64,000 nucleotides of DNA from an uncultured Rhodocyclaceae bacterium (GTDB lineage Bacteria; Pseudomonadota; Gammaproteobacteria; Burkholderiales; Rhodocyclaceae), in NCBI GenBank assembly GCA_907163225.1, contig OU015322.1:1-64000 (forward strand), read 5' to 3'. Both the position numbers and the translations under genes were made by a program. This document shows, one piece after another, positions 172-59,392 of the stretch; the first letter of the stretch is position 1; the number at the start of each line of letters is the position of its first letter. The notes beneath the pieces are model-generated. The model searched no databases and was not told where the DNA came from. It saw nothing but the letters and a program-made list of their open reading frames with translations.

Positions 172-207
172 ATGAAATTTGCCCAAAAATTCCGGTTGAC
201 CGCAGCA
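172..207 (+). repeat. Dispersed repeat copy inside the lolA signal peptide
   Basis: Carries TTTGCCCAAAAA followed by TTCCGGTTGACCGCAGCA. It is read in frame as FAQKFRLTAA, forming the signal peptide of LolA. Same orientation as the copy upstream of serS. Confidence 0.75.
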
Positions 208-792
208 CTCGTGCTTTTTCCGCTCTTTGCCCACGCGGGCGCCGTTGATCAGTTGCACGAATTCCTGAAAAGCACGCGTACCCTGAGAGCCGATTTTGCC
301 CAGGCAGTCATCAGCAAAAACGGCCGCAAGCCGCAGCAATCGTCTGGCACGGTCGCTATTTCACGGCCCGGAAAACTGCGCTGGGAAATCCAGAAGCCCT
401 ACCCGCAACTGATCGTCGGAGATGGCGAAAAAATCTGGATTCACGACCCCGAACTACAGCAAGTCACCGTCCGCAAGGCCGGGCAGGCCATCGGTGGCTC
501 GCCGGCGGCGCTGCTCTCCGGCAACAACGATCTCGAAAAGAATTTCACGCTCAGGGACGCTGGCGAAGCCGAAGGCCTGGTCTGGGTCGAAGCCATACCC
601 AAGGTGGGTGACAGCGGCTTCGAGAGCGTTCGCCTTGGCTTCTCCGGCAAAGACCTGACGGCCATGGAATTGCGCGACAGCTTCGGCCAAACCACGCTCA
701 TTCGCTTTTCAAAGCTGGAACGCAACCCAGCCCTGCCTGCCGCCATCTTCAAGTTTGCACCGCCAGCCGGTGTGGATGTCGTCGGCGAGTAA
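172..792 (+). CDS. lolA: Outer-membrane lipoprotein carrier protein LolA
   Basis: Periplasmic chaperone that takes lipoproteins from the LolCDE transporter to the outer membrane. The 206-residue protein has a signal peptide (residues 1-22, cleavage after AHA) and the LolA pattern: an early FxQ motif (RADFAQ), a GTVAISRPGKLRWE strand and a G-D-G-EKIWIHD segment. Length is normal for the family. It lies near rarA and serS, a common betaproteobacterial order. Odd feature: the start of the gene, which encodes the n- and h-regions of the signal peptide (FAQKFRLTAA), is a good copy of the dispersed repeat found throughout this window. No clear Shine-Dalgarno sequence precedes the ATG. Confidence 0.93.
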   Translation: MKFAQKFRLTAALVLFPLFAHAGAVDQLHEFLKSTRTLRADFAQAVISKNGRKPQQSSGTVAISRPGKLRWEIQKPYPQLIVGDGEKIWIHDPELQQVTVRKAGQAIGGSPAALLSGNNDLEKNFTLRDAGEAEGLVWVEAIPKVGDSGFESVRLGFSGKDLTAMELRDSFGQTTLIRFSKLERNPALPAAIFKFAPPAGVDVVGE

Positions 793-814
793 GCGGGGGA
801 ACTCCCGTAAAAAT

Positions 815-846
815 GCCGATTTTTCCGGTCGACCGGAAAAATCGGC
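815..846. repeat. Perfect 32-bp palindrome made from the dispersed repeat core
   Basis: Half-site GCCGATTTTTCCGGTC is followed by its exact reverse complement. The half-site matches the left part of the dispersed repeat (compare 6013-6055), so this looks like a head-to-head form. It lies between lolA and the convergent DUF302 gene and could also act as a bidirectional transcription stop, although there is no long T run. Confidence 0.85.
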
Positions 847-911
847 AAAAATTAAATTGACGCAAATCGACGCTGCACCAATTTGTCCGGGGGCCGTTGG
901 CGGGGCTGCTC

Positions 912-1364
912 TTAGCGACTGACGGTTGCCTCGGCCAGGCCGGCCAAGGCCTTGCGCAAGGCGTCCACGGCCGGACACTGTTCCGCGCCATGCCTTGCAG
1001 CCAGGAAGGCAGGGTCGTTGTAGCCAAGCCAGACCTGCGACGATGCATCCTCCCAAACCAAGGCCTTCAGCGGCAGGTCGATGCCAGCCGACTGCGCGCA
1101 CTCCATCAATGGCGTCCCGCCCTGAGGATTGCCAAAAATCAGTAATTCGGTCGGACGCAACGTCTTTCCGATTTTGGCTGCTCCCGCCGCATGATCGATG
1201 CGCGCGAACACATTCAGGCCGCGCTGTTTGACTGCCTCTTCAAGCCGATTCATGGTCTCCTTCGCGGCATAGGGGCTTTTCATCTCCACCAGGCCGTCTG
1301 CTGCAATCGCGAGCGAAGCTAGCGCGGCAAGACCCAGCGCGGAAATCACATGTCGAATTTTCAT
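912..1364 (-). CDS. DUF302 family secreted protein
   Basis: Protein of 150 residues with a signal peptide (MKIRHVISALGLAALASLAIA) followed by a DUF302 domain: VEMKSPYAAKETMNRLEEAVKQRG, FARIDHAAGA, and the conserved P-T-E-LLIFGNPQGGTPLM segment. DUF302 proteins are small periplasmic or cytosolic proteins of unknown biochemical role. The ATG at 1364 is preferred over longer in-frame options because GGAG lies just upstream and the signal peptide then starts correctly. It faces lolA tail to tail. Confidence 0.85.
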   Translation of the reverse strand: MKIRHVISALGLAALASLAIAADGLVEMKSPYAAKETMNRLEEAVKQRGLNVFARIDHAAGAAKIGKTLRPTELLIFGNPQGGTPLMECAQSAGIDLPLKALVWEDASSQVWLGYNDPAFLAARHGAEQCPAVDALRKALAGLAEATVSR

Positions 1365-1853
1365 GGGTGGCTCCAATAGCAAAGTTGTGGGAATAGCGAG
1401 GACACTTGAGTCGTTCAAGGCCGCGTGCTGAAAATACCCGCGGCGCAGTGATTCATGTGCTATCCGGGCGCATCGCCATTCGGGCCAACGACGCGCTGGA
1501 ATGACATGCAGCATGCCCGCATCGTGCCGTGAACCAATTGGAATAACAAGGTGCCACACTGGAGCTGCATTGAAGGGTGGCGGCAATGCTGCGTGGCGCA
1601 AGGCTTCTGGTGGTGGTTCGGGTGCTTTACAGCGCGCTTGCCGGGTAATACGCTACGGTCAGAGTAAGGCCCGTGAGTGCCGACGAGTTCATGGCTTTCC
1701 TGCGTAGCTGATGCGACGAGCTATCTTTTCTTCCGAAAAGCTTTCTTCCGGGTGTGGTCAAAAGCCGTTACGTGAAGCACCATCGGGGCTGTTCTCCAAG
1801 ATTCTCTGCTGTCGGGCCGGACGAGGCCTGACAATTTTCAAGAACTGAATGCC
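1365..1853. other. Intergenic region, no supported gene
   Basis: About 490 bases between the divergent DUF302 gene and rarA. Open frames here have no recognisable protein features. Presumably holds both promoters, but no convincing -35/-10 pair stands out. Confidence 0.6.
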
Positions 1854-3167
1854 ATGAGCGATTTGTTTTCCAAAAACGGCCCAGACACCGGCGCCCCCCT
1901 CGCCGAACAACTGCGCCCGCAAACGCCGGACGATGTGATCGGCCAGCAACACCTGCTCGGCGCCGGCAAGCCGCTGCGCCTGGCTTTCGAATCCGGTCAG
2001 CCGCATTCAATGATCCTCTGGGGGCCGCCGGGGGTGGGCAAAACGACGCTGGCGCGCATGATGGCGACGCAGTTTCAATGCGAATTCATTGCGCTGTCGG
2101 CGGTGTTTTCCGGCATCAAGGAAGTGCGCGAAGCCGTGGCGCAGGCCGAGATGTGGCGCGGGCAGGGGCGGCGCACCATTTTGTTCGTCGATGAAATTCA
2201 CCGGTTCAACAAGGCGCAGCAGGACGGCTTTTTGCCGTTTGTCGAATCAGGCCTGCTGACGTTTATTGGGGCGACGACGGAAAACCCGTCGTTCGAACTG
2301 AACTCTGCCTTGCTGTCGCGGGCGTCGGTCTATGTCCTCAAGTCACTTGACGAAGCCGAGATGGGCCAGCTTTTCGACCGGGCCAGCGCGCAGGCGCTGG
2401 CCGACCTGAGCTTTGAAGCTGCTGCCCGCGAACGTTTGATCGGCCTGGCCGACGGCGATGCACGGCGTTTGCTCAATTTGCTGGAGCAGGTGCGTACGGC
2501 AGCACGTACGGCGGGCATTGCTACGGTCAACGGCGAATTTATCGAAAAAACGATGGCGCAAAGTCTGCGCCGTTTCGACAAGGGTGGCGACGCTTTCTAT
2601 GACCAAATATCGGCCCTGCATAAATCGGTGCGTGGCTCGAACCCGGACGGCGCGCTCTACTGGCTGACGCGCATGCTCGACGGCGGCGCCGATGCCCGTT
2701 ACCTCGCCCGGCGCATCATCCGCATGGCGTGGGAAGACATCGGCCTGGCTGACCCGCGCGCCATGCAGATCGCCAACGAAGCGGCGCTGACCTACGAGCG
2801 CCTCGGCTCGCCGGAGGGCGAACTGGCGCTCGGGCAGGCGGTGATCTATCTCGCCGTGGCGGCCAAATCCAACGCCGGCTACAACGCTTACAACGCCGCC
2901 CGCGCCTTCGTGAAGCAGGACGGCTCGCGCCCGGTGCCCAACCACCTGCGCAACGCGCCGACCAAGCTGATGAAGGAACTCGGCCACGGCCACAACTACC
3001 GCTACGCCCACGACGAGCCGGACGCCTACGCCGCCGGCGAAACCTATCTGCCGGACGGCATGGCCGAACCCGGCTGGTATGAACCGACGCCGCGCGGGCT
3101 GGAGGGCCAGATCGGCCAGAAGCTGGCGCACTTGCGGGAGCTGGATCGCAAGGCGGGGAAGAAATAA
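1854..3167 (+). CDS. rarA: Replication-associated recombination protein A (AAA+ ATPase RarA/MgsA)
   Basis: AAA+ clamp-loader-like ATPase acting at stalled replication forks, 437 residues, normal length. Seen: [20 protein letters not shown] at the N-terminus, Walker [10 protein letters not shown], Walker [11 protein letters not shown], sensor 1 GATTENPSF, and the C-terminal tetramerisation region with [15 protein letters not shown] and [11 protein letters not shown]. The stop overlaps the next ATG by one base, so the two genes are probably co-transcribed. A weak match to the dispersed repeat (about 2513-2550, sharing CATTGCTACGGTCAAC with the copy before serS) encodes [10 protein letters not shown]. 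Confidence 0.96.
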
Positions 3168-5946: not shown

Positions 5947-7368
<1,422 letters not shown>

Positions 7369-9360: not shown

Positions 9361-10338
9361 ATGCTTGCTTATATCATTCGTCGCCTTCTGTACGCGCTCC
9401 CGATTTTGATCGGTGTTAACCTCGTTACCTTCGCGCTGTTCTTCGTCGTCAACACGCCGGACGATATGGCGCGCATGCAGCTTGGCGTCAAGCGCGTAAC
9501 GCCCGAGGCGATCCAGAAATGGAAGGTCGAGCGCGGTTACGACAAGCCGCTCTTGTGGAACAGCGAGGCGGCCGGGCTGAATGCTGCGGTCGACACGATA
9601 TTTTTCGAAAAATCGGCGCGCATGTTTGTTGGTGATTTTGGCCGGGCCGAGGATGGCCGCGACATCGCCCGCGAAATCGGCAACCGGATGCTGCCCTCGC
9701 TGGCCATCGCGCTGCCGACCTTCATTCTTGGTCTGTTCGTGACCATCACCTTTGCGCTGACCCTGGCCTTCTTCCGTGCCACTGCCTTCGATTTCTGGGG
9801 CGTTGTGCTGTGCGTCGCGGCGATGTCGATTTCAGGGTTGTTCTACATCATCGGCGGCCAGTATCTGATCAGCAAGGTCTGGCGGCTGGTGCCGATTTCC
9901 GGGTTTGGCGCCGGGCTGGAGGCGTGGCGTTTCCTGATTCTGCCGGTGCTGATTGGCGTCGTTTCCGGCATCGGTTCATCGACGCGCTGGTATCGCACCA
10001 TCTTTCTCGAAGAGGTCAGCAAGGATTACGTGCGCACCGCCCGCGCCAAGGGCCTGCCGGAAACGCTGGTCTTTTTCCGCCACATCCTGCGCAACGCGCT
10101 GATTCCCATCCTGACCGGCGTGGTCGTCGTCATTCCCATGCTCTTCATGGGCTCGCTGCTCACCGAATCCTTCTTCGGCATCCCCGGTCTGGGCAGCTAC
10201 ACGATTGATGCGATCAACGCGCAGGATTTCTCGGTGGTCCGCTCGATGGTCTTCATCGGCTCGGTGCTCTACATCGTCGGCCTGATCCTGACCGACATTT
10301 CCTACACGCTGGTCGACCCGCGGATACGCTTCGAATGA
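9361..10338 (+). CDS. Peptide-type ABC transporter permease (DppB/OppB/YejB-like)
   Basis: Inner-membrane permease of 325 residues. It starts MLAYIIRRLLYALPILIGVNLVTFALF, the standard N-terminal helix of OppB/DppB proteins, and has the cytoplasmic coupling (EAA-like) loop RTARAKGLPETLVFFRHILRNALIPILTG. The ATG at 9361 is chosen over a longer frame because it starts at the conserved helix. It overlaps the next permease by ATGA. No substrate-binding protein gene lies beside it, so the substrate cannot be named; di- or oligopeptides or microcin-C-like compounds are family possibilities. Confidence 0.9.
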   Translation: MLAYIIRRLLYALPILIGVNLVTFALFFVVNTPDDMARMQLGVKRVTPEAIQKWKVERGYDKPLLWNSEAAGLNAAVDTIFFEKSARMFVGDFGRAEDGRDIAREIGNRMLPSLAIALPTFILGLFVTITFALTLAFFRATAFDFWGVVLCVAAMSISGLFYIIGGQYLISKVWRLVPISGFGAGLEAWRFLILPVLIGVVSGIGSSTRWYRTIFLEEVSKDYVRTARAKGLPETLVFFRHILRNALIPILTGVVVVIPMLFMGSLLTESFFGIPGLGSYTIDAINAQDFSVVRSMVFIGSVLYIVGLILTDISYTLVDPRIRFE

Positions 10339-11717
10339 TGGGCTTCCAGGCTGTCGTGCTGTGGTCGGATGTGCTGATCTGGTTGCTCGTCGCGGCCGGG
10401 GCGGGCGTCGGTGTGATGATCGCGAAAAACCCGCCACTGCTCGCCGCCTGGCGCCGAGTCGGGGCGAATCGGGTGGGCATGGCTTCGGCCACCGTGCTGC
10501 TCGCCTTCGTCCTGATCGGCCTGCTCGATTCGCTGCATTACCGGGCACAGCTGGAGAGCAAGCCGGGGCAGAAGGCTGTTTTCGCCGTGGAAGTTTTGTC
10601 TGTGCTCGACGCGCTGGCCGCGCCACTTCGTTCGCGCAACGAGAAGACCTACTCGGCGCCATTTGCCACCCGACTCTACGCCAAGGAGACCATGGACGTA
10701 CCGGGCAAGGGGACAGTGCGCGACTACCCGCGCCTGAAGCATGGCGGCCAGCACCTCGGCGAGCGCGAGGACGAGGTGGCCGAGGATGCTGCCATGACCG
10801 CCTTCAAGGCCGGCGTGCTGGCATTTGTCGGCTGGCTGGGTGTGTTTGGCTCCGTTGCTGCGGTCAACCGGAAAAAAAGCCCAAAATTGAAATTGCGCGA
10901 AGCGGCCTTTGCCTGGGATGCCGTGCTGCTCACGCTGCTGCTTATTCTGGTTTTCGCCGTCCCGCTGTTCTGGCTGTCCGGCTACTACCACGTCTTCGGC
11001 ACCGACAAGGTCGGCCAGGACGTGCTCTACCAGATCCTCAAAAGCGTTCGTACCGGGCTCATCATCGGCCTCGTCACCACACTGGTCATGCTGCCCATGG
11101 CGGTGCTGCTCGGCATCGTCGCCGGCTATTTTCGTGGCTGGGTCGATGATGTGATCCAGTACATCTACACCGTCCTCAACTCGATCCCCGGCGTGCTGCT
11201 CATTGCCGCCGCCGTGCTCATGATGCAGGTGGTCATCGACACGAATCCGCAATGGTTCTCAACCGCCGCCGAGCGCGCCGACCTGCGTCTGCTGGCGCTC
11301 TGCTTCATCCTCGGCATCACGAGCTGGACGGGGCTGTGCCGCCTCTTGCGCGGCGAAACGCTCAAGCTGCGCGAACTCGAATACATCCAGGCGGCGCAGG
11401 CTTTCGGCGTGTCGAGCTGGCGCATCATCGTCCGCCACATCCTGCCCAACCTCATGCACATCGTCATCATCGCGCTGGTCATGGACTTCTCCGGCCTGGT
11501 GCTGGCCGAAGCGGTGCTGTCCTACGTCGGCATCGGCGTCGATCCGACGATGACCAGCTTCGGCACCATGATCAACAACGCCCGCATGGAACTCGGCCGC
11601 GAGCCGGTCGTCTGGTGGTCGCTGGCTGCGGCTTTCTCGGCCATGTTCATTTTGGTGCTGGCGGCCAACCTGTTCGCCGATGCGGTACGCGATGCTTTTG
11701 ACCCGAGGGCTGCGTAA
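10335..11717 (+). CDS. Peptide-type ABC transporter permease (DppC/OppC/YejE-like), extended
   Basis: Second permease of the transporter, 460 residues, clearly longer than the usual 280-350. The C-terminal half is typical: TDKVGQDVLYQILKSVRTGLIIG, then a coupling loop EYIQAAQAFGVSSWRIIVRHILPNLMH and a final helix ending FADAVRDAFDPR. The extra length lies between the first helices (about residues 60-190), with a predicted external stretch (KTYSAPFATRLYAKETMDVPG). A copy of the dispersed repeat sits at the end of this stretch and is read as VAAVNRKKSPKLKLRE. Confidence 0.9.
   Translation: MMGFQAVVLWSDVLIWLLVAAGAGVGVMIAKNPPLLAAWRRVGANRVGMASATVLLAFVLIGLLDSLHYRAQLESKPGQKAVFAVEVLSVLDALAAPLRSRNEKTYSAPFATRLYAKETMDVPGKGTVRDYPRLKHGGQHLGEREDEVAEDAAMTAFKAGVLAFVGWLGVFGSVAAVNRKKSPKLKLREAAFAWDAVLLTLLLILVFAVPLFWLSGYYHVFGTDKVGQDVLYQILKSVRTGLIIGLVTTLVMLPMAVLLGIVAGYFRGWVDDVIQYIYTVLNSIPGVLLIAAAVLMMQVVIDTNPQWFSTAAERADLRLLALCFILGITSWTGLCRLLRGETLKLRELEYIQAAQAFGVSSWRIIVRHILPNLMHIVIIALVMDFSGLVLAEAVLSYVGIGVDPTMTSFGTMINNARMELGREPVVWWSLAAAFSAMFILVLAANLFADAVRDAFDPRAA
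10853..10893 (-). repeat. Dispersed repeat copy inside the permease gene
   Basis: Reads GCTGCGGTCAACCGGAAAAA then AAGCCCAAAATTGAAATT on the + strand, the reverse complement of the repeat. Translated in frame as VAAVNRKKSPKLKL, at a cytoplasmic loop position between membrane helices. Confidence 0.85.
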
Positions 11718-13694
<1,977 letters not shown>

Positions 13695-16058: not shown

Positions 16059-17453
16059 TTAGAGATAGGCTGCCAATGACGCTGCAACCGTTTGGCGTCC
16101 GATCAGGGCAATCACCGCATCGACCGCGGGCGTCTGCGCCTGACCGGTCAGGATGACGCGCAGGGGCATGGCCAGCTTGGGCATCTTCAGGCCGTGCTTG
16201 GTTACGGTTTCCTTGATCAGGGCGTTGATAGCTGGGATTTCCCAGTCAACCGTGGCAATCCCGGCGGCAAAATCGGCCAGCGCCGGTCGGGCATCATCCG
16301 CAAGATGCTGGGCAAGGAGTTCCGGGTCGGGTGTGACCTGGCTGTAGAACACTTCAACGGCGTCAGCCAGCACATTCAGCGTATTGCTGCGGTCAACGTA
16401 CAAAATAGCCGCTTTTTCAATATCCGGACCAGCGTCGGTGTTGATGCCACGTGCTGCCAGCCGGGCCTTGATCTTGGCGGCCAGTTCGGCTGGCGGTAGT
16501 TGTTTCATGTAATGCTGGTTCAACCACAACAGCTTTTCGGTATTGAACTGGGCGGCCGAGGCAGTAATGTGGTCAAGATCAAACCACTCAACGAATTGCT
16601 GGCGCGAGAAAATTTCGTCGTCACCATGCGACCAGCCGAGGCGGGCCAGATAGTTGATCACGGCCTCGGGCAGGAAACCGTCTTCGTCGTATTGCATGAC
16701 TGACACGGCACCGTGACGCTTCGACAGCTTGGCACCGTCGTCGCCGAGGATCATCGAGAGGTGGGCGTAGGTCGGCATCTCGGCACCCAGTGCCTGGAGG
16801 ATGTTGATCTGGCGCGGCGTGTTGTTGACGTGATCGTCGCCGCGGATGACGTGGGTGATGCCCATGTCCCAGTCGTCAACGCAGACGCAGAAATTGTAGG
16901 TCGGCGTGCCATCGCCACGGGCGATGATCAGGTCGTCGAGTTCAGCGTTGGCGAATTCAATGCGGCCCTTGACCTGATCTTCCCAAGCAACGACACCTTC
17001 TTTCGGGTTTTTGAAGCGGATGACCGGCTGGATCCCGGCTGGTGGCGTCGGCAGAGCCTTGCCGGCTTCAGGGCGCCAGCGACCGTCGTAACGCGGTTTT
17101 TCTTTCTTCGCTTCCTGCTCGGCGCGCAGCGCATCGAGTTCTTCCCGGCTGGTGTAGCAATGGTAGGCGGTGCCGGCAACCAGCATTTGCTGAATGACTG
17201 CCTTGTAGCGCTCCATGCGCTGCATCTGGTAGAACGGACCTTCGTCGTGTTCCAGTTCCAGCCACTGCATGCCGTCGAGAATGGCCTGAACGGCTTCAGG
17301 CGTCGATCGGGCAACATCGGTATCTTCGATGCGCAGGATAAAGGTGCCGCCATGGCGATGGGCATAGGCCCAGGAAAACAGCGCGGTACGGGCGCCACCG
17401 ATGTGCAGGAAACCGGTGGGGCTGGGGGCAAAACGAGTGCGGACAGGCTTCAT
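16059..17453 (-). CDS. gltX: Glutamyl-tRNA synthetase
   Basis: Class I synthetase, 464 residues, normal length. HIGH motif is HIGG in [18 protein letters not shown] (residues 17-20), and the KMSKS equivalent is KLSKRHGA. Catalytic-domain segments [14 protein letters not shown] and [15 protein letters not shown] are typical. It lies upstream of, and on the same strand as, the two tRNA-Glu genes. A partial match to the dispersed repeat (16383-16420, GTTGACCGCAGCAAT) encodes [13 protein letters not shown], where relatives have a similar xDRAxTL sequence of the same length. Confidence 0.97.
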
Positions 17454-17780: not shown

Positions 17781-20204
17781 TTACTTGCGGCTGGCCCTGA
17801 CCAACTTGCCCTTGCCGCCGCGATTGCCGCGACAGATTTCCAGGCGTTCGCCCTTGAGCTTGCCAGCAGCGCCATCGATCACCGGAACGATGTCGTCCAA
17901 AGCCGTTTTGCCCGGACTGGCGTCGATCAGCTTGAGGCCTCGGCCTTTGGCCAGCAGGCGGATTTCCTCGATATTGAAGACCAGCGCGCGGCCATCCTTG
18001 GTGATGCAGGCGACTTCTCCATCAGTCGGCGCCGGCATGAAAATGGCGGGTGATTCATTGTCACCCAGGCTCAGGAAAGCCTTGCCGGCCTTGCCGCGGG
18101 ACATGAAGTCCTCACCCTTGCAGCGGTAACCGTAGCCACCATCGGCGGCAACCAGATAGAGTTTTTCGCGCTGTATGGCGAGTGCCAGGCAGGGTTTTCC
18201 ACCATCCTGGAAATCGGCCAGCGAAGTGGCCGGGATACCGTCGCCCTTGCCGCCGGGAATGTCGGAGGCGGGGATCGAGTAGGCGCGGCCCTTGGTGTCG
18301 AGCAGGATCAGGCTGTCCACCGTGCGGCACGGCAGGCAGGCCAGCAGTTCGTCGCCGGAGCGGAAACTGAGTTGCGTCGGGTCGATGTTGTGGCCCTGGC
18401 GCGAGCGCAGCCAGCCGTGTTTGGAGACGATCAGCGTGGTTGCTTCATCGACGATGGAAACCGTTTTGGCGTCCGACATCGTGACCTTGTCGGCGGCTTC
18501 GATGAAGGTGCGGCGGTCGTCGCCGTATTTCTTCGCGTCGGCTTCGATTTCGGCCGCGACGCAGGCGCGCATGGCTTCGTCGGAATTCAGCAGCTTGTTG
18601 AGGCCGGCGGCTTCTTCGCGCAGCTTGGCGAGCTCTTCGCCGATCTTGATGCCTTCCAGCCGCGCCAATTGGCGCAGGCGGATTTCGAGGATATCTTCGG
18701 CCTGAATCTCGGACAGCTTGAAATGCGCCATAAGATCGACCTTGGGGTCGTCCGATTCGCGGATGACCTTGATGACCTTGTCGATGTCGAGCAATACCGC
18801 CAAACGGCCTTCCAGGATGTGGATGCGCTTTTCGGCGGCGGTCAGGCGGTGGCGGGTGCGGCGCTCGACGGTGGCGAGGCGGAAGCGGCACCATTCGGCG
18901 ATCATGCTGTACAGCGAGGCCTGACGCGGCGTGCCGTTGACGCCGAGGACGGTCAGGTTGATCGAGGCGTTGGTTTCGAGGCTGGTGTGGGCGAGCAACA
19001 TGCGCACCAGATCGTCCTGGCCCTGGCGCGACGAAGCGGGTTCGATGACGAGGCGGACGGCGTGTTCCTTGCCCGACTCGTCGCGCACGCCGCTTTCCGA
19101 GATCGATGACAGGAAGGCCGCCTTGAGGTTGAGTTGTTCCGGCGTGAATACCTTTTTGCCGGCCTTTTCCTTGGCGACCGGATTCGAGCAGGCTTCGATT
19201 TCCGAGAGCACCGTGGCGGTTGAAACGCCCGGCGGCAGTTCGGTGATGACCAGCTTCCACTGGCCGCGGGCAAGGTTTTCGATCTTCCACTTGGCGCGTA
19301 CGCGCAGGCTGCCGCGGCCGCTACGGTAGGTGGCGGCGATTTCTTCGGGCGTCGAGATGATTTGCGCGCCGCCCGGGTAGTCCGGGCCGGGGATCATCGC
19401 TAGCACTTGGTCTTCGCTGAAAATCGGGTCTTTTATCAGGTTGACCGCAGCATTCGCTACTTCGCGCAGGTTATGGGCCGGGATTTCGGTGGCCATGCCG
19501 ACAGCGATGCCGGAGGCACCGTTGAGCAGGCAGAAGGGCAGACGGGCCGGGAGCAGGGCTGGTTCGTCGTTGGCGCCGTCGTAGTTGGGCTTCCAGTCGA
19601 CCGTGCCTTCGTCGAGTTCAGCCAGCAGCAGTTCGGCAATCGGCGTCAGGCGGGCTTCGGTGTAGCGCATGGCGGCTGCGTTGTCGCCGTCGCGCGAGCC
19701 GAAATTGCCCTGGCCGTCGACGATGGGGTAACGCAGGCTCCAGTCCTGCGCCATGCGGACCATGGCGTCATAGACAGACGAATCGCCGTGCGGGTGATAT
19801 TTACCGATCACGTCACCGACGACGCGGGCCGACTTGACGTGGCGCGGGCTCTTGTACAGCCCCATCCGGTGCATGGCGTAGAGGATGCGGCGCTGCACCG
19901 GTTTCTGGCCGTCGGCGGCCGAGGGCAGGGCGCGGCCGGTGACGACGCTCATGGCGTATTCGAGGTAGCGGCGGGCAGCGTAGTCGGCAGGCGAAGGGAT
20001 GTCGCTGGCCGGGCCAGTGGCCGAGGGGGGCAAATCCGGCGGATCGTTGTCGCGTGCTTCGCTGGAATGCGTGCCGTTGGTGGCAGGTGCGCCGGCTTCC
20101 GAAGTGCTCTCGGTAGCAGGCGTCACCGTTTGATCCGGGGTGGGCAGTGTCTCGGCTAGCGGGAGCGGATTGTTCGGGTCGAAAAGTTTCAGCTGGTCGG
20201 TCAT
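17781..20204 (-). CDS. parC: DNA topoisomerase IV subunit A
   Basis: Chromosome-decatenating type II topoisomerase subunit, 807 residues. Active-site tyrosine 181 in [10 protein letters not shown]; quinolone-region segment [49 protein letters not shown]-terminal beta-pinwheel with the short repeats expected of ParC, not GyrA. Odd: the first 70 residues are a Pro/Thr/Ser/Ala-rich extension absent from short homologues. parE lies 16 kb away, so the pair is split here. A weak repeat match near 19436-19465 encodes [11 protein letters not shown]. Confidence 0.95.
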
Positions 20205-22012: not shown

Positions 22013-22059
22013 AAATTTCAGTTTTCGCCAAAATTTCCGGTTGACCGCGGGATTCGGCG
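22013..22059 (+). repeat. Dispersed repeat, intergenic copy
   Basis: AAATTTCAGTTTTCGCCAA followed by AATTTCCGGTTGACCGCGGG. It lies directly after the terminator and before the end of the LysR gene, 430 bases from another copy inside that gene. Confidence 0.85.
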
Positions 22060-22121: not shown

Positions 22122-23039
22122 TTACGGTGGCGTCTCGCCCAGGCGTTCAGCCAGAAAATCAACAAACACGCGGATCTTCGGCGGCAGATGGGTTTGCGGC
22201 AGCCACAGCGCGTAGGCGGTCTGGCCGAAGGGGCCGACAGGCGTCCAGTCAGGCAGCAGGGCCACCAGCCGGCCATCGGCGATTTCGCGGTCGACGGCGT
22301 AATTCCAGACCAGCCCGATGCCCATCCCGGCGAGCAGCAGGTCGCGCACCACCTCGCTGTTGTTGACCACCACGTTGCTCTTCACGCGCACTCTGGCCTC
22401 TTCGTCACCGCGCTGGAAACGCCATTCGTTGCCGAATTCCCGCAGGCCGTAGTGCAGGCAGTTGTGGCCGGCAAGGTCGGCCGGCGTTTCTATTTTTTGC
22501 CCATTTTTCCGGTTGACCGCAGAACACAGCCGGTAACGCACCGGCATCAACGCCTTGGCCACCACTTGCTCTGGCGGCGTTCGGGTCAGGCGCAGGGCCA
22601 CGTCGTAGCCTTCATCGACCAGATCGACAAAGCGGTCGAGCAGGGTGAGTTGCAGCTCGATCTCCGGGTAGCGGGCAAGGAACTCGGGAATCAGCGGCGC
22701 CAGGCAGAGCTTGCCGAAAGTGACCGATGCCGTGACCCGCAAGGTGCCGCGCGGCGAATCAACCAGCCCGGCAGCGAGGCGGGCGCTCTCGTCGAGCAGC
22801 GCCACCCCCTGTGCGGCGCGTTCGTACAGCACGCGGCCGGCTTCGGTCAGTGACATGGCACGCGTCGTACGCTGCAGCAGGCGCAGGTCGAGCTGTTTTT
22901 CCAGCCGTTTGATGCGCTTGCTGACCGCCGATTTGGTCAGGCCCATCGCCCGCGCAGCCGATGAAAAGCCTTGTGTCTCAACGACCCGGACAAAAACAGC
23001 AAGGTCGGACAAATGATCGAGCGGATTTATTGTTTCCAT
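22122..23039 (-). CDS. LysR family transcriptional regulator
   Basis: Regulator of 305 residues. The N-terminal winged HTH reads LAVFVRVVETQGFSSAARAMGLTKSAVSKRIKRLEKQL; the C-terminal part is a substrate-binding domain. The ATG at 23039 (METINPLDHL) gives the usual length; longer frames add no homology. It diverges from the tautomerase/isochorismatase pair (87 bases), its likely target. Odd: residues encoded by 22489-22527 are a dispersed-repeat copy, read CSAVNRKNGQKIE, where most LysR proteins have a similar-length xASPxYLxxxG stretch. Confidence 0.92.
   Translation of the reverse strand: METINPLDHLSDLAVFVRVVETQGFSSAARAMGLTKSAVSKRIKRLEKQLDLRLLQRTTRAMSLTEAGRVLYERAAQGVALLDESARLAAGLVDSPRGTLRVTASVTFGKLCLAPLIPEFLARYPEIELQLTLLDRFVDLVDEGYDVALRLTRTPPEQVVAKALMPVRYRLCSAVNRKNGQKIETPADLAGHNCLHYGLREFGNEWRFQRGDEEARVRVKSNVVVNNSEVVRDLLLAGMGIGLVWNYAVDREIADGRLVALLPDWTPVGPFGQTAYALWLPQTHLPPKIRVFVDFLAERLGETPP
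22489..22527 (+). repeat. Dispersed repeat copy inside the LysR gene
   Basis: TTTTTTGCCCATTTTTCCGG followed by TTGACCGCAGA. The gene reads the opposite strand in frame as SAVNRKNGQKI, with no stop and no obvious change in protein length. Confidence 0.85.
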
Positions 23040-38195: not shown

Positions 38196-38200
38196 GCGCT

Positions 38201-38238
38201 TTTGAATTTTGGGCAAATTTTGCGGTTGACCGCAGCAA
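38201..38238 (+). repeat. Dispersed repeat copy in the parE leader
   Basis: TTTGAATTTTGGGCAAATTT followed by TGCGGTTGACCGCAGCAAGG. It sits within six bases of the parE start codon and forms the region where a ribosome site would be expected. Confidence 0.85.
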
Positions 38239-38335
38239 GGGCTGCGGGCGCGATTTTAGCCGTTTTCAGTCAGTGCGCGGGGATAGCGGCGTGGCATAAT
38301 CCGCCCTCAAGCAGCGTTTCACTAAGGACTCGCCC

Positions 38336-41431: not shown

Positions 41432-41872
41432 TCAGCCGAGCAATGTGACTACGATTTCCCGTCGATGACCTTGCGTCCGGTGTTCGAACAGGTAAATCCC
41501 CTGCCATGCTCCGAGTAGCAGTTTGCCGTCGGCAAAGGGTATGGTCAGTGCTACGCCGGTAAGCAATGAGCGGGCGTGGGCGGCCATGTCGTCCTCGCCT
41601 TCCTGGTTGTGACGATAAGCCGGGTCGCCATCCGGAGCCCAGCGCTGCATCAAGGTTTCAAGATCGCGGCGAACGCTGGCGTCGGCATTTTCAGTGATGG
41701 CCAGTCCGCAACTGGTGTGGCGCACGAAAATATGAGCAATTCCGGCGTTGACCGTGGGGCCCGCAGCTGCATTTTTGTTCGCAGCATAGCCGACCAGTGC
41801 GGCGATTTCGTCGGTGATTTCAACGGAACCGCGGCCGCGGCTGGTGATGGTAAGAAGATGTTGTTCAGCCAT
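41432..41872 (-). CDS. yjbQ: YjbQ family protein (UPF0047)
   Basis: Protein of 146 residues starting MAEQHLLTITSRGRGSVEITDEI. YjbQ features: AGIAHIFVRHTSCGLAITENADASVRRDLE, the HNQEGEDDMAAHARS metal-site region, and LGAWQGIYLFEHR. Family members have weak thiamine-phosphate synthase activity. It follows yajD on the same strand with an eight-base gap. The GGTCAAC near 41745 is part of PTVNAG and only weakly like the repeat. Confidence 0.9.
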   Translation of the reverse strand: MAEQHLLTITSRGRGSVEITDEIAALVGYAANKNAAAGPTVNAGIAHIFVRHTSCGLAITENADASVRRDLETLMQRWAPDGDPAYRHNQEGEDDMAAHARSLLTGVALTIPFADGKLLLGAWQGIYLFEHRTQGHRREIVVTLLG

Positions 41873-43643: not shown

Positions 43644-43685
43644 ATTTCAATTTTGGCCAAAATTTCCGGTTCACCGTGGGAATAG
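43644..43685 (+). repeat. Dispersed repeat, intergenic copy
   Basis: ATTTCAATTTTGGCCAAAAT followed by TTCCGGTTCACCGTGGGAAT. It lies between convergent radical SAM and MFS genes and has one change in the GGTTGACC core (GGTTCACC). Confidence 0.87.
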
Positions 43686-49303: not shown

Positions 49304-50257
49304 TCAGGCTGGCTGGCTTTGGCGCAACTGCGCTACGTCGCGCCCCGGCGGGGTACCGAACATGCGGCGGTATTCACGGTTGAATTGCGAGGGGCTTTCG
49401 TAGCCGACGTGGTGGGCGGCCGAAGCGGCGTCTGCATCGCTGACCAGCATCAGGCGGCGGGCCTCATGCAGGCGCATCTGCTTTTGATATTGCAGTGGCG
49501 TCATGGCCGTCAGTGCCTTGAAATGGTGGTGCAGCGAGGATTTGCTCATATTCGACAGGCTGGCCAGTCGGTCGATGCTGATCGGCTGGTCGAGGTTGGT
49601 TTTCAGCCAGTCGATGGCGCGCACGATCTGGTGGCTGTGGCTGCCAGCCGCCGCCGCCTGCCGCAGGCGCGATCCGAGCGGGCTGGTGAGCAGGCGGTAG
49701 AGCAGTTCGCGCTCGATGATCGGGGCGAGCACAGCGATGTCGGCCGGCGTATCGAGCAAGCGGGCGAGGCGCAGGGCGGCGCCCTGAATGTCGGCGCTGA
49801 TGGTGCCGACGGCAATACCACGGTCAACGGCATCCAGGGCCCGATTCTTGGGAATGGCCGCCGACAGTTCGTTGATTTTCAGCGGGTCGAGAATCAGCCC
49901 CAGCCCGAGGTAAGGCTCACTGGCCGAGGCGCAGGTGATGCGTGAGAACATCGGCAGGTCGACCGACGAAATCAGGCAATGCTGGCAATCGTAGTCATAG
50001 ACCTCATCGCCCACCGTGATGCGCTTGGCGCCCTGAACCATCATGGCGAAAACCGAGGCCATGATGGCGCAGGTCGGCGCATCGGTGGTCGAGCCGCGAA
50101 ACAGGCGCAGGCCGGGGATCACTGTCTCAACTGCACCGTCATCCGGGCAATGGCGCTGGAGAATCCCGGTCAGCTCCTCGCGCTGGCGAATCAAGGCGGC
50201 ATTTTCCATGGTGCTGGAATCATTTTGGCGAGGCGGGGTCAGAGCGGCAGTATCCAT
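49304..50257 (-). CDS. AraC family regulator of the molybdenum hydroxylase operon
   Basis: Regulator of 317 residues with an AraC_N-type sensing domain ([49 protein letters not shown]) and C-terminal HTH pair ([38 protein letters not shown], and [22 protein letters not shown]). Relatives often respond to aldehydes. ATG at 50257 is chosen; a start at 50210 is also possible. It is divergent from iorA (179 bases), which suggests control of that operon. Confidence 0.9.
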
Positions 50258-50906: not shown

Positions 50907-53126
50907 ATGAGCGAAATCATTATTGAAAACCTCAGCCGCCGCCGTTTCCTGCAAGGCAGCGCCGGCCTGACGCTGGGCTTTTGCCTGCCGGCTGTTGCGG
51001 CAGCTGCTGCCGGCAAGCTGGGCGCCGTTGCTGCGACCACAGAATCAACGGCTGGCCCTAGGGTCAACACGGAAATCAACGCATTTTTGAAAATTGGCAG
51101 CGACAACAGCGTGACCGTCATGTCCAAGCACCTCGAAATGGGGCAGGGCACCTACACCGGTCTGGCCACCATCCTGGCCGACGAACTCGATGCCGACTGG
51201 AAGCACGTTCGCGTTGAAGGCGCCGCCGCCGACGCCAAGCGCTACAACAACACCTTCTGGGGCCCGACGCAGGGCACCGGCGGCAGCACGGCGATGGCCA
51301 ATTCCTGGGATCAGATGCGCAAGGCCGGCGCCGCCGGGCGGGCCATGCTGGTTTCTGCTGCTGCCAAGCGCTGGAAGGTCGGGGCGGCTGACATTGTCGT
51401 GCGCGACGGCATCGTCAGCCACGCCGGCAGCGGCCGCAAGGCGAGCTTCGGCGAGTTGGCGCTGGATGCCGCCAATGAAACGGTGCCGACAGACATCAAG
51501 CTGAAAGACCCCAAGGATTTTCGCCTGATCGGCAAGCAGGCCAAGCGAAAAGACAGCGCAGCCAAGGTCAACGGCACGGCGCAATTCACGCAGGACGTTT
51601 TCCTGCCCGGAATGTTGGTTGCTGTGGTCGCCCATCCGCCGATGTTTGGTGCCACGGTCAAATCCTTCGACGCGACCAAGGCCAAAACGATCAAGGGCGT
51701 CGTCGATGTCGTGCAGATTCCGCAGGGTGTGGCCGTGCTGGCCACGGACACCTGGAGCGCCAAGAAGGGCCGCGATGCGCTGTCGGTCAACTGGGACGAC
51801 AGCAAGGCCTTCAAGCTGGGCAGCGATGAAATCCTCGCCAAGTACAAAGAAATGGCCAAGAAACCCGGCCTCATTGCCGCGAACAAAGGCGACACGGCGA
51901 AAACCTTTGCCGGTGCTGCCAAGGTCGTTAGCGCTGCCTTCGATTTTCCCTACCTCGCCCATGCCGCGATGGAGCCGATGAACTGCGTCGTCCAGCTCAA
52001 GGCCGATAGCTGCGAAGTGTGGAATGGCGAGCAATTCCACACGGTTGACCAAGGCCGGGTGGCGGCGCTCTTCGGGCTCAAGCTGGAGCAGGTCAAGCTC
52101 AATATGCTTTACGCCGGCGGCAGTTTCGGGCGCCGGGCTTCGACGCAATCCGACTACGTGCTGGAAGCGGCGCACATCGTCAAGGCGATCAACGGCAAGG
52201 CGCCGGTCAAGCTGGTCTGGCTGCGCGAGGACGACATGCGCGCCGGCTACTACCGCCCGCTGTTCCACCATGCGCTGGAAGCCGCACTCGATGGCAGCGG
52301 CAAGCTGGTCGGCTGGCGTCACCGGCTGGTCGGGCAGTCGATCATCACCGGCTCTCCGTTCGAGCCGATGCTGGTCAAGAACGGAATCGACCACGTTTCG
52401 GTCGAAGGCGCCGCCAATCTGCCTTACGCCATTCCCAACCTGACGGTCGATTTGCACACGCCGACCGACATCGGCGTGCCGGTGCTCTGGTGGCGCTCGG
52501 TTGGCTCCTCGCACACGGCCTATTCGACCGAGGTCTTCCTCGATCAGGTGGCGCTGGCCATGGGCAAAGACCCGGTCGCTTTGCGTTTAGAGCTACTGAC
52601 CGAGCACCCGCGCCATGCCGGCGTGCTCAAGTTGGCGGCCGAGAAAGCCAACTGGGGAACGCCGCTCAAGGCTGCGGCTGGCGAGCGGCGCGGCCGTGGC
52701 GTGGCGGTGCATGAATCCTTCAATTCATTTGTTGCCCATGTCGCCGAAGTGACGATCAAAAAAGACGGCTCAATTCGGGTTGACCGTGTGGTTTCGGCGG
52801 TCGATTGCGGCACGGCGATCAACCCGGACAACATCCGTTCGCAGGTTGAAGGATCGGTCGGTTTCGCGCTGTCGGCCGCCATGAGCGGTGAAATCACGCT
52901 CAAGGGCGGGCGCGTCGAGCAGGGCAACTTCGATGGCTACCCGATCCTGCGTATCGGCGACATGCCGAAGGTCGAAGTCCATATCGTGCCATCGACCGGC
53001 GCCCCGACCGGCATCGGCGAACCCGGTGTGCCGCCGGTTGCCCCGGCTGTCGCCAACGCCATCGCCGCCGCGACCGGCAAGTTCCTGTACAAAATGCCGT
53101 TCAACACCGCCGAACTGGTGGCCTGA
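50907..53126 (+). CDS. iorB: Molybdopterin subunit of a molybdenum hydroxylase (IorB-like)
   Basis: Catalytic subunit of 739 residues with a Tat signal ([15 protein letters not shown]), so it is exported folded with its partner. Seen: [37 protein letters not shown], and the C-terminal [17 protein letters not shown] with the catalytic Glu. It likely oxidises aldehydes or N-heterocycles. The long form of the dispersed repeat encodes [16 protein letters not shown] just after the signal peptide. Another weak match at 52765-52790 encodes GSIRVDRVV. Confidence 0.94.
51036..51096 (-). repeat. Dispersed repeat, long form, inside iorB
   Basis: ACCACAGA-ATCAACGGCT-GGCCCTAGGGTCAAC then CATTTTTGAAAATT on the + strand. 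Thirty of the first 33 bases match the LRR-kinase copy, in the same reading frame ([11 protein letters not shown]). The right part has diverged. Confidence 0.85.
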
Positions 53127-53127: not shown

Positions 53128-54147
53128 ATGGACAGCCTGGATACACAGGTACTGGACGCCGCCCGAAGCTGGGCGGCAGCCGGACATCGTTTCGCGCTGA
53201 TCACCGTCGCCCGAACCTGGGGTTCCGCCCCCCGGCCGCCGGGCGCCTGGATGGTGCTGCGCGACGATGGGCAGGTGCAGGGCTCGGTGTCCGGCGGCTG
53301 CATCGAGGACGACCTGATCCGCCGTGCCGCAGCCGGTGAATTTGCCGGCGAATTTGGCAAAAACACCCCACGCGTGCTGCGCTATGGCGTCACGGCCGAT
53401 GAAGCCCATCGCTTTGGCCTGCCCTGCGGCGGTACGCTGGAACTGGTGCTTGAACCGGCGCCCGATGCCGCCTTGCTCGAACAACTCGCCCAGCGTATCG
53501 GCACCGGCCAACTGGTGCATCGGCGTGTAGCGCTGGCGACGGGTGCAGTTAGCCTCGAAGGCGGCAGCGCTGGCGACAGCCAGCAATGGGACGGCGAAAC
53601 ACTGGTCACCTTGCACGGCCCGGCCTGGCGCTTGCTGATCATCGGCGCCGGGCAGATTTCTCGCTACCTGGCGACCATGGCGCAGGCCCTCGGCTACCGC
53701 GTCTACATCTGCGACCCGCGCAGCGAGTATGCCGACGGCTGGGATGTTCCCGGCACCGAGCGCATCGCCGCCATGCCCGACGATGCGGTCACCGAACTCG
53801 GCCTCGACCCGCGCAGCGCGGTCGTCGCGCTGACCCACGACCCCAAGCTCGACGACCTGGCCCTGCTCGAAGCGTTGAAGTCACCGGCCTTCTACGTCGG
53901 CGCGCTCGGCTCGCAGGCCAACAACAGCAAACGTCGCGAACGCCTGTTGCAGTATTTCGACCTGTCGCAGGCCGAAGTTGACCGCCTGCACGGCCCGGTC
54001 GGTCTGCCCATCGGCAGCCGCACCCCGCCGGAAATCGCAGTGTCGATTCTGGCCGAAATGACGGCAGTGAAAAATGGGCAAAATTTCCGGTCGACCGTGG
54101 GAATGAATGACCACCAAGCTGATCCCTACGCCTGCCGCGTCGCATGA
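53128..54147 (+). CDS. xdhC: XdhC/CoxI-family molybdenum cofactor insertion protein
   Basis: Protein of 339 residues that prepares and inserts the sulfurated molybdenum cofactor into the partner hydroxylase. N-terminal CoxI part: TWGSAPRPPGAWMVLRDDGQVQGSVSGGCIEDDL; C-terminal Rossmann domain LLIIGAGQISRYLATMAQALGYRVYICDPR and KSPAFYVGALGSQANNSKRRERL. It begins one base after the iorB stop. The last 25 residues (KNGQNFRSTVGMNDHQADPY) come from a dispersed-repeat copy and replace the expected plain C-terminus. Confidence 0.94.
   Translation: MDSLDTQVLDAARSWAAAGHRFALITVARTWGSAPRPPGAWMVLRDDGQVQGSVSGGCIEDDLIRRAAAGEFAGEFGKNTPRVLRYGVTADEAHRFGLPCGGTLELVLEPAPDAALLEQLAQRIGTGQLVHRRVALATGAVSLEGGSAGDSQQWDGETLVTLHGPAWRLLIIGAGQISRYLATMAQALGYRVYICDPRSEYADGWDVPGTERIAAMPDDAVTELGLDPRSAVVALTHDPKLDDLALLEALKSPAFYVGALGSQANNSKRRERLLQYFDLSQAEVDRLHGPVGLPIGSRTPPEIAVSILAEMTAVKNGQNFRSTVGMNDHQADPYACRVA
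54070..54107 (+). repeat. Dispersed repeat copy at the xdhC C-terminus
   Basis: AAAAATGGGCAAAATTTCCG followed by GTCGACCGTGGGAATGA. Read in frame as KNGQNFRSTVGMN. The core has GGTCGACC, as in the palindrome at 815-846. Confidence 0.85.
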
Positions 54148-57593: not shown

Positions 57594-57722
57594 TTGAATT
57601 CCGTTTTATTTATGTCTCCCACGGTCACGACTCTAGCTGTTATTTATTTCAATTTTTTTAAGGTTGCTGATTGTTGAACATGGAGCCAGCCGTCTATGGT
57701 CTCGATTTGCCAAGGCTCGATA

Positions 57723-57752
57723 AAAAAGGCCGTTCATTCGAACGGCCTTTTT
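57723..57752 (-). terminator. Terminator of the Do-protease gene
   Basis: AAAAAGGCCGTT-CATTCG-AACGGCCTTTTT. It works on both strands and lies just after the protease stop. Confidence 0.88.
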
Positions 57753-57757
57753 CGCAT

Positions 57758-59227
57758 TTAACCCAGGTCGACCGGGACGAATAATCGTGAATCGCCGCGT
57801 TCGAGCAGGATGGCGGCTTTCTTGCCGGATTTGGCGATGATGCCGCGTAGTTGCTCCGGGCTGGCGATGGGTTGGCCGTTGACCGAGACGATGATGTCGC
57901 CGGGGCGGATGCCGGCGCGGGCTGCGGGGCCGCCGGCTTGTTCGACGAGGACGCCGCCTTTGACTTCGGCCCGGCGTTGTTCTTCGGGCGTCAGTTCGCG
58001 GACGGCGATGCCGAGGCGGCTTTTGTCGTTGGCGGGTTGTTCGGCGCTGGCGACTTTTTCATCGGCGAAGACGCCGACCTGGACGTCGATGTCGCGGTTC
58101 TGACCCTTGCGCCAGACTTGCAGGCGGGCGCGTTCTCCGGGCTGTTTGGTGGCGATGGCGGCGGGGAGCTCGCCGGCGGCGCTGATCGTCTTGCCGTCAA
58201 CGCCGAGAATGACGTCGCCCGGTTCCAGTCCGGCCTTGGCGGCGGGGCTGCCTTTTTCGATGGAGGAGACCAGGGCGCCAGCAGGTTTGGCCAGGCCGAA
58301 GGTGTCGGCGAGCGACTGATTGACTTCCTGGATGCTGACGCCGAGTTTGCCGCGCTGGACCTTTCCATTCGCGACGATCTGTTTCTCGACGTTCATCGCC
58401 ACTTCGATGGGGATGGCGAAGGAGAGGCCCTGGTAGCCGCCGCTGCGCGAGTAGATTTGCGAATTGATGCCGATGACTTCGCCGTTCATATTGAACAGCG
58501 GGCCACCGGAATTGCCGGGGTTGACCGCGACGTCGGTCTGGATGAACGGGACGTAGCTGCCGTCCGGCAGGCTGCGCGACTTGGCGGAGACGATGCCGGC
58601 GCTGGCGCTGCTTTCAAAGCCGAAGGGAGAACCGATGGCGAGCACCCATTCGCCAACCTGGGTGGTGGCAGAGGCGCCGATGCGCACGGTGGGCAGGGCC
58701 TTGCCGTCGATCTTGAGCACGGCAACGTCGCTGGCCTTGTCGAGGCCGAGCACTTTGGCCTTGAATTCGCGGCGGTCGTTGAGCTTGACGACGACTTCGC
58801 TGGCGCCGTCGACGACGTGGGCATTGGTCAGCACGATGCCGTCGGCGCGAACGATGAAGCCGGAGCCGACGCCCTGGGTTTGCTGTTGGCTTTCCGGCAC
58901 CGGGCCACGGAAGTGGCGGAAGAACTGATAGAGCGGGTCGCTCGGATCGAGTTGCGGCAAGCTGGGGGCAGCGGCCGTCTTGCGTGTGCCGGATACGCCG
59001 ATATTGACGACGGCCGACCCGTTGGCGGCGACGATGCTGCGCATGTCGGGCAGGCCGGCGGGCGCCGCGACAGGGGCAGGTGCGGCTTGGGGGGCAACGG
59101 CGGCGACGGGCTGAGCGGCGGCTTGCGCGTCGCCAATCGGCTGGTATTGGCCCAGCGCGTAGGCACCGCCCAAGGCAGCGGCGAGGGCTACGGCGATTGT
59201 GGTCATCCTGAGGGAATTTCGTTTCAT
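57758..59227 (-). CDS. degP: Do-family periplasmic serine protease (DegP/DegQ/MucD-like)
   Basis: Periplasmic quality-control protease of 489 residues. N-terminal membrane or signal helix (TTIAVALAAALGGAYALG), catalytic triad His137 (LTNAHVVDG), Asp167 (ASDVAVLKI) and Ser240 (NPGNSGGPL), then two PDZ domains (LGVSIQEVNQSLADTFGL.. and LGIAVRELTPEEQRRAEV..). The ATG at 59227 is the family start; the frame continues upstream without features. DegP and DegQ cannot be told apart with certainty. Confidence 0.93.
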   Translation of the reverse strand: MKRNSLRMTTIAVALAAALGGAYALGQYQPIGDAQAAAQPVAAVAPQAAPAPVAAPAGLPDMRSIVAANGSAVVNIGVSGTRKTAAAPSLPQLDPSDPLYQFFRHFRGPVPESQQQTQGVGSGFIVRADGIVLTNAHVVDGASEVVVKLNDRREFKAKVLGLDKASDVAVLKIDGKALPTVRIGASATTQVGEWVLAIGSPFGFESSASAGIVSAKSRSLPDGSYVPFIQTDVAVNPGNSGGPLFNMNGEVIGINSQIYSRSGGYQGLSFAIPIEVAMNVEKQIVANGKVQRGKLGVSIQEVNQSLADTFGLAKPAGALVSSIEKGSPAAKAGLEPGDVILGVDGKTISAAGELPAAIATKQPGERARLQVWRKGQNRDIDVQVGVFADEKVASAEQPANDKSRLGIAVRELTPEEQRRAEVKGGVLVEQAGGPAARAGIRPGDIIVSVNGQPIASPEQLRGIIAKSGKKAAILLERGDSRLFVPVDLG

Positions 59228-59350
59228 TGCTTTCTCCTGGCGAATTCGGGCAACCCTCAGTTTTGGGCGGAAGCGGGAGTTTTTGATGGGTGTTTTTGCG
59301 ACGATTTGTATCAAAATTTTACTGCCCGGGCTCCCGGCGCGTTGTTCTCA

Positions 59351-59392
59351 CCATTCCCACGGTCAACCGGAAAAATCGACCAAAAATGAAAT
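59351..59392 (-). repeat. Dispersed repeat, near-complete intergenic copy
   Basis: On the minus strand it reads ATTTCATTTTTGGTCGA then TTTTTCCGGTTGACCGTGGG and AATGG. It matches 6013-6055 at about 38 of 42 bases. It lies between the divergent protease and btaA genes. Confidence 0.9.

Follow-up and report, generated by a model that had tools for sequence, protein, structure and literature searches.

In the literature found, which excludes preprints and most subscription journals, uptake sequences are described solely in the Pasteurellaceae, as the uptake signal sequence (USS), and in the Neisseriaceae, as the DNA uptake sequence (DUS). The members of both families are mostly host-associated bacteria. 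Here, we describe a dispersed repeat in the chromosome of an uncultured Rhodocyclaceae bacterium whose genus, as GTDB defines it, is very likely Azonexus; the repeat was noticed in a stretch of 64,000 nucleotides (NCBI GenBank assembly GCA_907163225.1, contig OU015322.1, positions 1 to 64,000, forward strand), hereafter the window. This lineage is far from the Pasteurellaceae, and the Neisseriaceae are, like it, betaproteobacteria. The evidence gathered below suggests that the repeat is probably a genomic DNA uptake sequence, the counterpart of the Haemophilus USS and the Neisseria DUS. The DUS has eight dialects (PMC12616744, PMC3630211) and 65% of the USS of H. influenzae lie in genes (PMC1626085). 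No description of the present repeat was found for Dechloromonas, Rhodocyclales, Rhodocyclaceae or Azonexus in the titles and opening parts of abstracts covered by the search, and the excerpt of a paper on Dechloromonas aromatica mentions repeats and DNA uptake in other senses only (PMC2907700).

Copy number, anatomy and sites in the window

An earlier note, made from the letters of the window, proposed a dispersed family of 42-bp copies. In the window, the core TTTTCCGGTTGACCGCAGCA has 10 matches with at most 3 mismatches, against 0.01 expected from dinucleotide shuffles. The excess holds on the whole chromosome, where the earlier note had located the decisive count: the 16-mer CCGGTTGACCGCAGCA, with at most 2 mismatches, occurs 207 + 188 times, versus 4 + 4 for the reversed control. 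A 40-position profile with an information content of 31.8 bits was then scanned over a sample of 864 kb (40 evenly spaced 20-kb stretches of the 3.46-Mb chromosome, plus the window), and double counts from the near-palindromic core were removed. It found 330 sites, versus 9 in a fourth-order Markov control, which extrapolates to about 1,323 sites in the genome (roughly 1,300). The window itself holds 27 profile sites, 8 of them weak (scores 12-18), whereas 60 dinucleotide-shuffled windows gave, at the same threshold, a mean of 0.37 and a maximum of 2 matches (both strands scanned, matches not de-duplicated; the training sequence of the profile includes the window). The existence of the family, with a copy number far above chance, is confirmed.

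All 14 positions given in the earlier note correspond to profile sites, to which the scan adds 13, and the 27 sites lie on both strands, inside and between genes, as it had described. Two positions needed correction, since the sites reported at 30923 and 51036 are present but start 18 bases higher (30941-30980 and 51054-51093). The unit is rather about 38 bp than 42 bp, and the copy described as palindromic at 815 resolves into two overlapping inverted sites (803-842 and 819-858). The copies at 6014 and 59351 are near-identical (93% over 42 bases).

Counted from the core, consensus positions 1-38 read TgCTRCGGTCAACsgGAAAAWt.gsscAAAWWYsraat. Among the sites accepted by the profile, positions 6-10, 12 and 13 are 97-99% fixed, and the 5' letters are variable (TGCTG, TGCTA, TCCCA and others among the window sites). 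Downstream of the near-palindromic GC core, A/T tracts lie at fixed distances: the first at 17-22, the second at 28-33 and a weaker third one at 35-37, with a GSC box between the first two. The sites of the window are given below, with scores from the profile scan, gene identities from Pfam and gap status from alignments with orthologue-like genes in related genomes (handles such as G018).

170..209, minus strand: site, score 44.0, overlapping the start of lolA (172-792, plus strand; Pfam LolA)
803..858: two overlapping inverted sites, 819-858 (plus strand, score 42.2) and 803-842 (minus strand), between called genes 172-792 and 912-1364
2517..2556, plus strand: site, score 35.7, in AAA+ (MgsA-like) gene 1854-3167; gap-free against G018
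6014..6053, minus strand: site, score 53.6, the highest in the window, where called gene 6052-7368 (plus strand) starts
9580..9619, plus strand: site, score 31.4, in called gene 9361-10338; gap-free against G018
10854..10893, plus strand: site, score 52.1, in a variable linker of ABC permease gene 10335-11717; gapped against relatives
11769..11808, plus strand: weak site, score 15.2, in ABC ATPase gene 11718-13694
12287..12326, minus strand: site, score 34.0, in ABC ATPase gene 11718-13694; no gap against G018 or G022
12807..12846, plus strand: weak site, score 16.5, in ABC ATPase gene 11718-13694
16220..16259, minus strand: weak site, score 12.3, in Glu/Gln-tRNA synthetase-type gene 16059-17453
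16383..16422, plus strand: site, score 27.8, in Glu/Gln-tRNA synthetase-type gene 16059-17453; gap-free against G018
19415..19454, minus strand: site, score 36.8, in the gene for topoisomerase IV/gyrase subunit A (17781-20204); no gap against G016 or G018
22015..22054, minus strand: site, score 44.6, between two convergent called genes
22487..22526, minus strand: site, score 45.5, in called gene 22122-22946
23368..23407, minus strand: site, score 40.9, in called gene 23013-23528
30941..30980, plus strand: site, score 39.3, in called gene 29714-31072
33477..33516, plus strand: site, score 40.4, antisense in B12-binding/radical SAM gene 32151-34229
36007..36046, minus strand: weak site, score 16.3, in called gene 35981-36244
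38200..38239, minus strand: site, score 48.1, at the 5' end of the gene for a topoisomerase subunit B (minus strand; 36246-38195 as called, 36246-38216 for the longest frame)
41722..41761, minus strand: weak site, score 17.9, in called gene 41432-41872
43644..43683, minus strand: site, score 44.0, between two convergent called genes
49814..49853, plus strand: weak site, score 16.0, in called gene 49304-50257
51054..51093, plus strand: site, score 27.1, in called gene 50907-53126
52754..52793, minus strand: weak site, score 16.7, in called gene 50907-53126
54065..54104, minus strand: site, score 37.4, in called gene 53128-54147, close to its end
57742..57781, minus strand: weak site, score 16.2, across the end of called gene 57758-59206 (minus strand)
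59353..59392, plus strand: site, score 49.1, between called genes 57758-59206 (minus strand) and 59477-60718 (plus strand), with longer alternative frames overlapping

The site at 170-209 covers, as read from the sequence, the start codon and first residues (MKFAQKFRLTAALV) of lolA, so that the motif is now part of its probable signal peptide. Downstream of lolA, the inverted pair at 803-858 contains a perfect 34-bp palindrome; it recalls the overlapping dyad DUS pairs of Simonsiella and Kingella (PMC3630211). At the Rfam gathering threshold, the window matches only tRNAs and no known RNA family corresponds to the repeat. A tRNA cluster (Asp-Glu-Ala, window 15356-16017) is tandemly duplicated, with Asp and Glu units 100% identical and Ala units 92% identical over 100 bases.

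Origin of the copies and placement on the chromosome

Sites in genes were compared with orthologue-like genes (best tblastn match, at least 55% identity) in samples of four low-copy relatives, G018, G016, G027 and G022. Comparison was possible for 37 of the 210 coding sites and gave 45 site windows, counting that of the site at 10854, which is uninformative in its variable linker with indels. Thirty-nine of the 45 align without a gap (241 of 248 for control windows from the same gene pairs), which indicates that sites arise by point mutation and not by insertion. Similarly, the radical SAM gene shows no length difference at the site in most relatives, and codons change singly at a fixed position; the exceptions are one relative with an insertion beside the site and one with sequence missing. 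Judged from these alignments, the repeat is not an inserted element, and its copies are made by substitution. Redfield and colleagues used the same gap argument to conclude that USS are not insertions, with gaps in 24% of 474 alignments (PMC1626085). In addition, residue identity is 0.58 at site windows versus 0.82 in control windows, and sites therefore sit at tolerant places.

According to gene calls by a simple home-made caller (783 genes, 86% coding), 210 of the 330 sampled sites lie fully in genes (64%), 31 partly, and 89 between genes. The earlier note was thus right to set the repeat apart from gene-avoiding repetitive extragenic palindromic (REP) elements. It had also named natural codon use as a possible source of the copies; the 89 intergenic sites, and a density of 0.74/kb between genes versus 0.28/kb within them, speak otherwise. 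Among 119 sites scoring at least 38, 60 are intergenic and 14 partly so. Raw counts by gap type, set against the expectation from length, are 35 versus 27.6 for convergent, 49 versus 49.4 for tandem and 15 versus 22.1 for divergent gaps. Within genes, 102 of 128 sense sites fall in one frame, and the 82 antisense sites split into 52, 29 and 1.

The sites are more evenly spaced than chance and show no strand bias. The coefficient of variation of neighbour spacing is 0.716, below the 0.935 of randomly placed sites and below every one of 1,000 simulations, and counts per 20 kb have a mean of 7.6 and a variance of 4.2 (fraction of Poisson simulations as low, 0.012). Sites occur in all tenths of the genome, 171 on the plus and 159 on the minus strand. 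Two low-GC stretches of the same genome hold 2 and 5 sites, versus the mean of 7.6.

Distribution, dialects and competence genes

Across 76 genomes of the genus, surveyed with one pattern for each of two bases at core position 5 (G or A), both patterns including the distal A/T tract, 40 have 95-327 matches per Mb, 4 have 24-42, and 32 lie at a background of 1-17; these densities use rounded genome sizes, and several of the genomes are incomplete. With the G pattern alone, which would miss an A-only dialect, no excess was found in 297 genomes of the order outside the genus (maximum 14 matches per genome; the order set has 300 genomes from 134 genera, 3 of them in the genus), nor in 365 genomes of the class outside the order (maximum 12; class set of 369 genomes from 272 genera). 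Among the genomes searched, the enriched repeat is restricted to the genus (0 of 662 outside it enriched). Explaining the enriched state on a tree of one gene from 30 genomes takes 6 changes. Well-supported branches force 4 of these, so that gain or loss of the repeat has been repeated.

Enriched relatives differ in dialect, as seen with profiles retrained on sequence samples. In G002 the consensus is TKCCACGGTCAACcGGAAAAA and the third tract is strong (21 sites in 96 kb, control 0.8), and G034 has TGCYGCGGTCRAC (35 sites in 120 kb, control 1.2). In G008 (61 sites in 120 kb, control 1.8) and G030 (124 sites in 200 kb, control 4.8), the core is of the type yGCGGTCRAC, the first tract is weak and the distal tract is kept. 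In G015, retraining recovered no more than 9 sites from 60 kb (control 0.2). According to the counts of both patterns, the share of A at position 5 varies between 0.09 and 0.94 in the enriched genomes. Common to all dialects are CGGTCRAC and the distal tract at a constant distance.

Word and flank scans of the low-copy genomes G018, G016, G027 and G022 revealed no alternative motif with spaced flanks; the samples, of 120-200 kb, could miss a weaker motif, and the same flank scan ranks the known core first in G030. A profile seeded with the window motif found, in 160 kb of G022, 14 sites of heterogeneous sequence (control 0.5), possibly a relic, versus 1 in G018, 0 in G016 and 4 in G027. The word CAGGGTCAG, seen 21 times in G018 versus 3.3 expected and also raised in G022 and G027, is probably a Leu-Thr-Leu codon word.

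The search for competence genes covered ComEC and the minor-pilin operon, and both are present. ComEC (TIGR00361) has a match in 75 of the 76 genomes, over the curated cut-off in 68, and lies at 188149-189960 in the genome of the window. As read from the hit table, comEC is split in 13 of 76 genomes, 8 of which have the pieces about 20-64 kb apart on one contig; the table leaves the status of another 8 unresolved. In this genus, comEC is a repeated insertion target. Breakage of competence genes by mobile elements is known, and the general idea was reportedly put forward in an earlier paper. For comEC of another bacterium, such disruption is described in an abstract (PMC12955456).

Two of these insertions were compared with their flanks, and the repeat is under-represented in both. 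That of G067 (C22:222975-271519) is Tn7-like, because it carries TnsA, TnsB-type (Mu-transposase C domain), TniB/TnsC-type and TniQ/TnsD proteins. With the G030 profile, it has 1 weak site in 48.5 kb, whereas its 31.5 kb of flank have 17; with the G008, G000 and G002 profiles, the counts are 0 versus 15, 10 and 2. That of G085 (C1:2720418-2763735) has 0 sites in 43.3 kb versus 12 in 36.7 kb of flank with the G000 or G002 profile; by eye, its open reading frames resemble a DNA cytosine methyltransferase and GHKL ATPases.

In the genome of the window, the minor-pilin operon (G000:C1:1087435-1094904) encodes a ComP_DUS pilin (PF16732, E 1.5e-13), FimT/GspH, a small protein without a Pfam match, PilW, a second unmatched protein and PilY1; going by place only, the small protein is labelled PilV and the second unmatched one PilX. 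A PDB search with the PF16732 protein matches major pilins, so this family need not mean a DUS receptor. Within the genus, PF16732 is present in 70 of 76 genomes, PF12019 in 69 and a homologue of the operon's FimT in 59. ComP-type genes either adjoin FimT or lie 2-8 kb off, and both arrangements are seen in enriched and background genomes; the distance differs between species. FimT diverges strongly among relatives: in G003, whose ABC permease is 98% identical, the match reaches 27% over a part of the protein. G003 is 76% complete, and its true FimT counterpart may be missing. The minor-pilin locus looks hypervariable or swapped.

Probable DNA uptake role, alternative explanations and known systems

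If the repeat is a DNA uptake sequence, a type IV pilus uptake receptor would prefer fragments carrying CGGTCRAC together with an A/T tract some two turns of the helix further downstream. Once taken up and recombined, such fragments would bring matching alleles, and sites would improve by point mutation plus biased uptake (molecular drive), accumulating wherever the protein sequence tolerates them and settling at about one per 2.6 kb. Newly arrived mobile DNA would stay poor in sites, changes in the receptor would shift the preference and create dialects, and sites would decay where preference or competence is lost. The preference, the drive and the receptor are the parts that we infer.

Several observations weigh against an uptake role. 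Six of the 45 site windows are gapped in a relative, versus 7 of 248 controls, and one gap is of at least 10 residues; the tolerant placement of sites may also explain this higher share. Both comEC insertions are lower in GC than their flanks, and that of G085 has 3 weak matches with other profiles, versus 13 (G030) or 12 (G008) outside. On our reading, comEC is intact in 19 of 32 background as well as 33 of 40 enriched genomes, and split comEC does not sort with repeat density (5/38 vs 7/26, Fisher p 0.20); with no significant association, comEC integrity was rejected as the cause of repeat loss. ComP-type and FimT-type pilins occur in enriched and background genomes alike, without sorting by eye over the 76 genomes. 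Their presence was likewise rejected as the cause, and no candidate receptor among them sorts with the repeat. Finally, no paper on transformation in the genus was found in the literature covered.

Among other explanations, the sites could be recognised inside the cell, as a long bipartite sequence, by a nucleoid-associated or chromosome-organising protein, and their regular spacing would be kept for that role. Genome-wide presence, even spacing, a long constrained motif and A/T tracts about one helical turn apart would all fit such a protein. This is nevertheless unlikely, given that density is uneven within one genus and leaves a gap between background and enriched genomes, that relatives differ in dialect and that sites are rare in two resident insertions. 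FtsK-type sites (FtsK orienting polar sequences, KOPS) are strand-biased and matS sites are clustered, whereas this repeat shows neither property; oriented sites of the FtsK type were rejected on the even strand counts.

A transcription-factor or terminator motif, to which the intergenic density and the surplus in convergent gaps might point, is very unlikely: most sites lie fully in genes, divergent gaps are the poorest, and some 1,300 sites are far beyond an ordinary regulon. A promoter or regulator site was rejected on location.

A non-autonomous mobile repeat inserting into genes, of the REP type, the Rickettsia palindromic element (RPE) type or the miniature inverted-repeat transposable element type, is largely refuted and retains hardly any likelihood. 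Copies in genes, both orientations and near-identical pairs such as 6014/59351 are what it would produce, and the earlier note had seen a likeness to RPE. That likeness is not supported, given the gap-free alignment of most coding-site windows, the codon-by-codon change in the radical SAM gene (on these two grounds an insertion element was rejected) and the few copies in the two comEC insertions; in addition, positions differ strongly in fixation.

An amino-acid or codon artefact (AAVN-like peptides), suggested by the strong frame preference of the sites, is refuted because of their intergenic excess, clear among the high-scoring sites, and also faces the extra A/T tracts, the near-zero reversed-pattern controls and the confinement of the excess to part of one genus.

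A DNA uptake sequence thus remains the probable explanation. If it is correct, an uptake label would exist in a genus outside both known families, and 76 genomes, 40 with and 32 without the label and in several dialects, would make the origin of the preference and dialect switching testable, as well as the role of the label in species isolation and the identity of the pilin that reads it. The label would also be a practical tag for laboratory transformation of these bacteria.

RPE are inserted elements, and REP or bacterial interspersed mosaic elements are inserted or copied units. The present repeat is, like them, dispersed and partly palindromic, with some copies in genes, but its sites are made by substitution. 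Taken together, abundance, birth by point mutation, even spacing, strand balance, tolerant placement, rarity in insertions and dialects are sequence hallmarks of USS and DUS.

The reference cores of the Pasteurellaceae USS are AAGTGCGGT (Hin) and ACAAGCGGT (Apl) (PMC12616744, PMC1626085). Neither is found here, where the core TgCTRCGGTCAAC has only GCGGTCAA in common with them. The extended forms are AAAGTGCGGTCAATTTT (eHin) and AACAAGCGGTCAAATTT (eApl) (PMC12616744), compared with TGCTGCGGTCAACCGGAAAAAtcggcAAAATTGAAAT here. The USS has its second A/T segment 12 positions on, the distal segment of Apl being AAAATTTTGCAAAT (PMC1626085). Both repeats share the string GCGGTCAA, a GC core followed by two 3' A/T segments about 11-12 bp apart, hundreds to more than 1,000 sites, an origin by substitution, dialects of sub-clades and a similar share in genes (210/330 here). 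In contrast, the 5' core is TGCTR or TTCCCA-like here and AAGT or ACAA in the USS, and four extra bases (CCGG) stand here between GCGGTCAA and the first tract. The tracts lie at about 17-22 and 28-33 rather than 11-16 and 23-28 (a shift of about 4-6 bp), in a motif of about 38 bp in all.

The Neisseriaceae DUS is given as GCCGTCTGAA and lacks flanking motifs (PMC1626085). The present repeat shares with it abundance, the existence of dialects, a ComP_DUS-family pilin in the genome and the overlapping dyad pairs that some species have. Unlike the DUS, the present motif has an unrelated core, A/T tracts and a greater length, and its ComP-family pilin does not sort with density; the profile consensus does not contain GCCGTCTGAA, the one dialect compared letter by letter. 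Since core and tract spacing differ from those of the USS, and the core is unrelated to that of the DUS, the repeat is filed with neither family, and probably resembles an uptake sequence in function while being a member of neither USS nor DUS. The likeness to the Pasteurellaceae may reflect receptor homology, convergence or chance. More tentatively, these environmental betaproteobacteria could be a third self-labelling uptake lineage, with dialects within one genus, whose GCGGTCAA core and 3' tracts present a Pasteurellaceae-type recognition surface, through a homologous minor-pilin receptor or the same solution reached twice.

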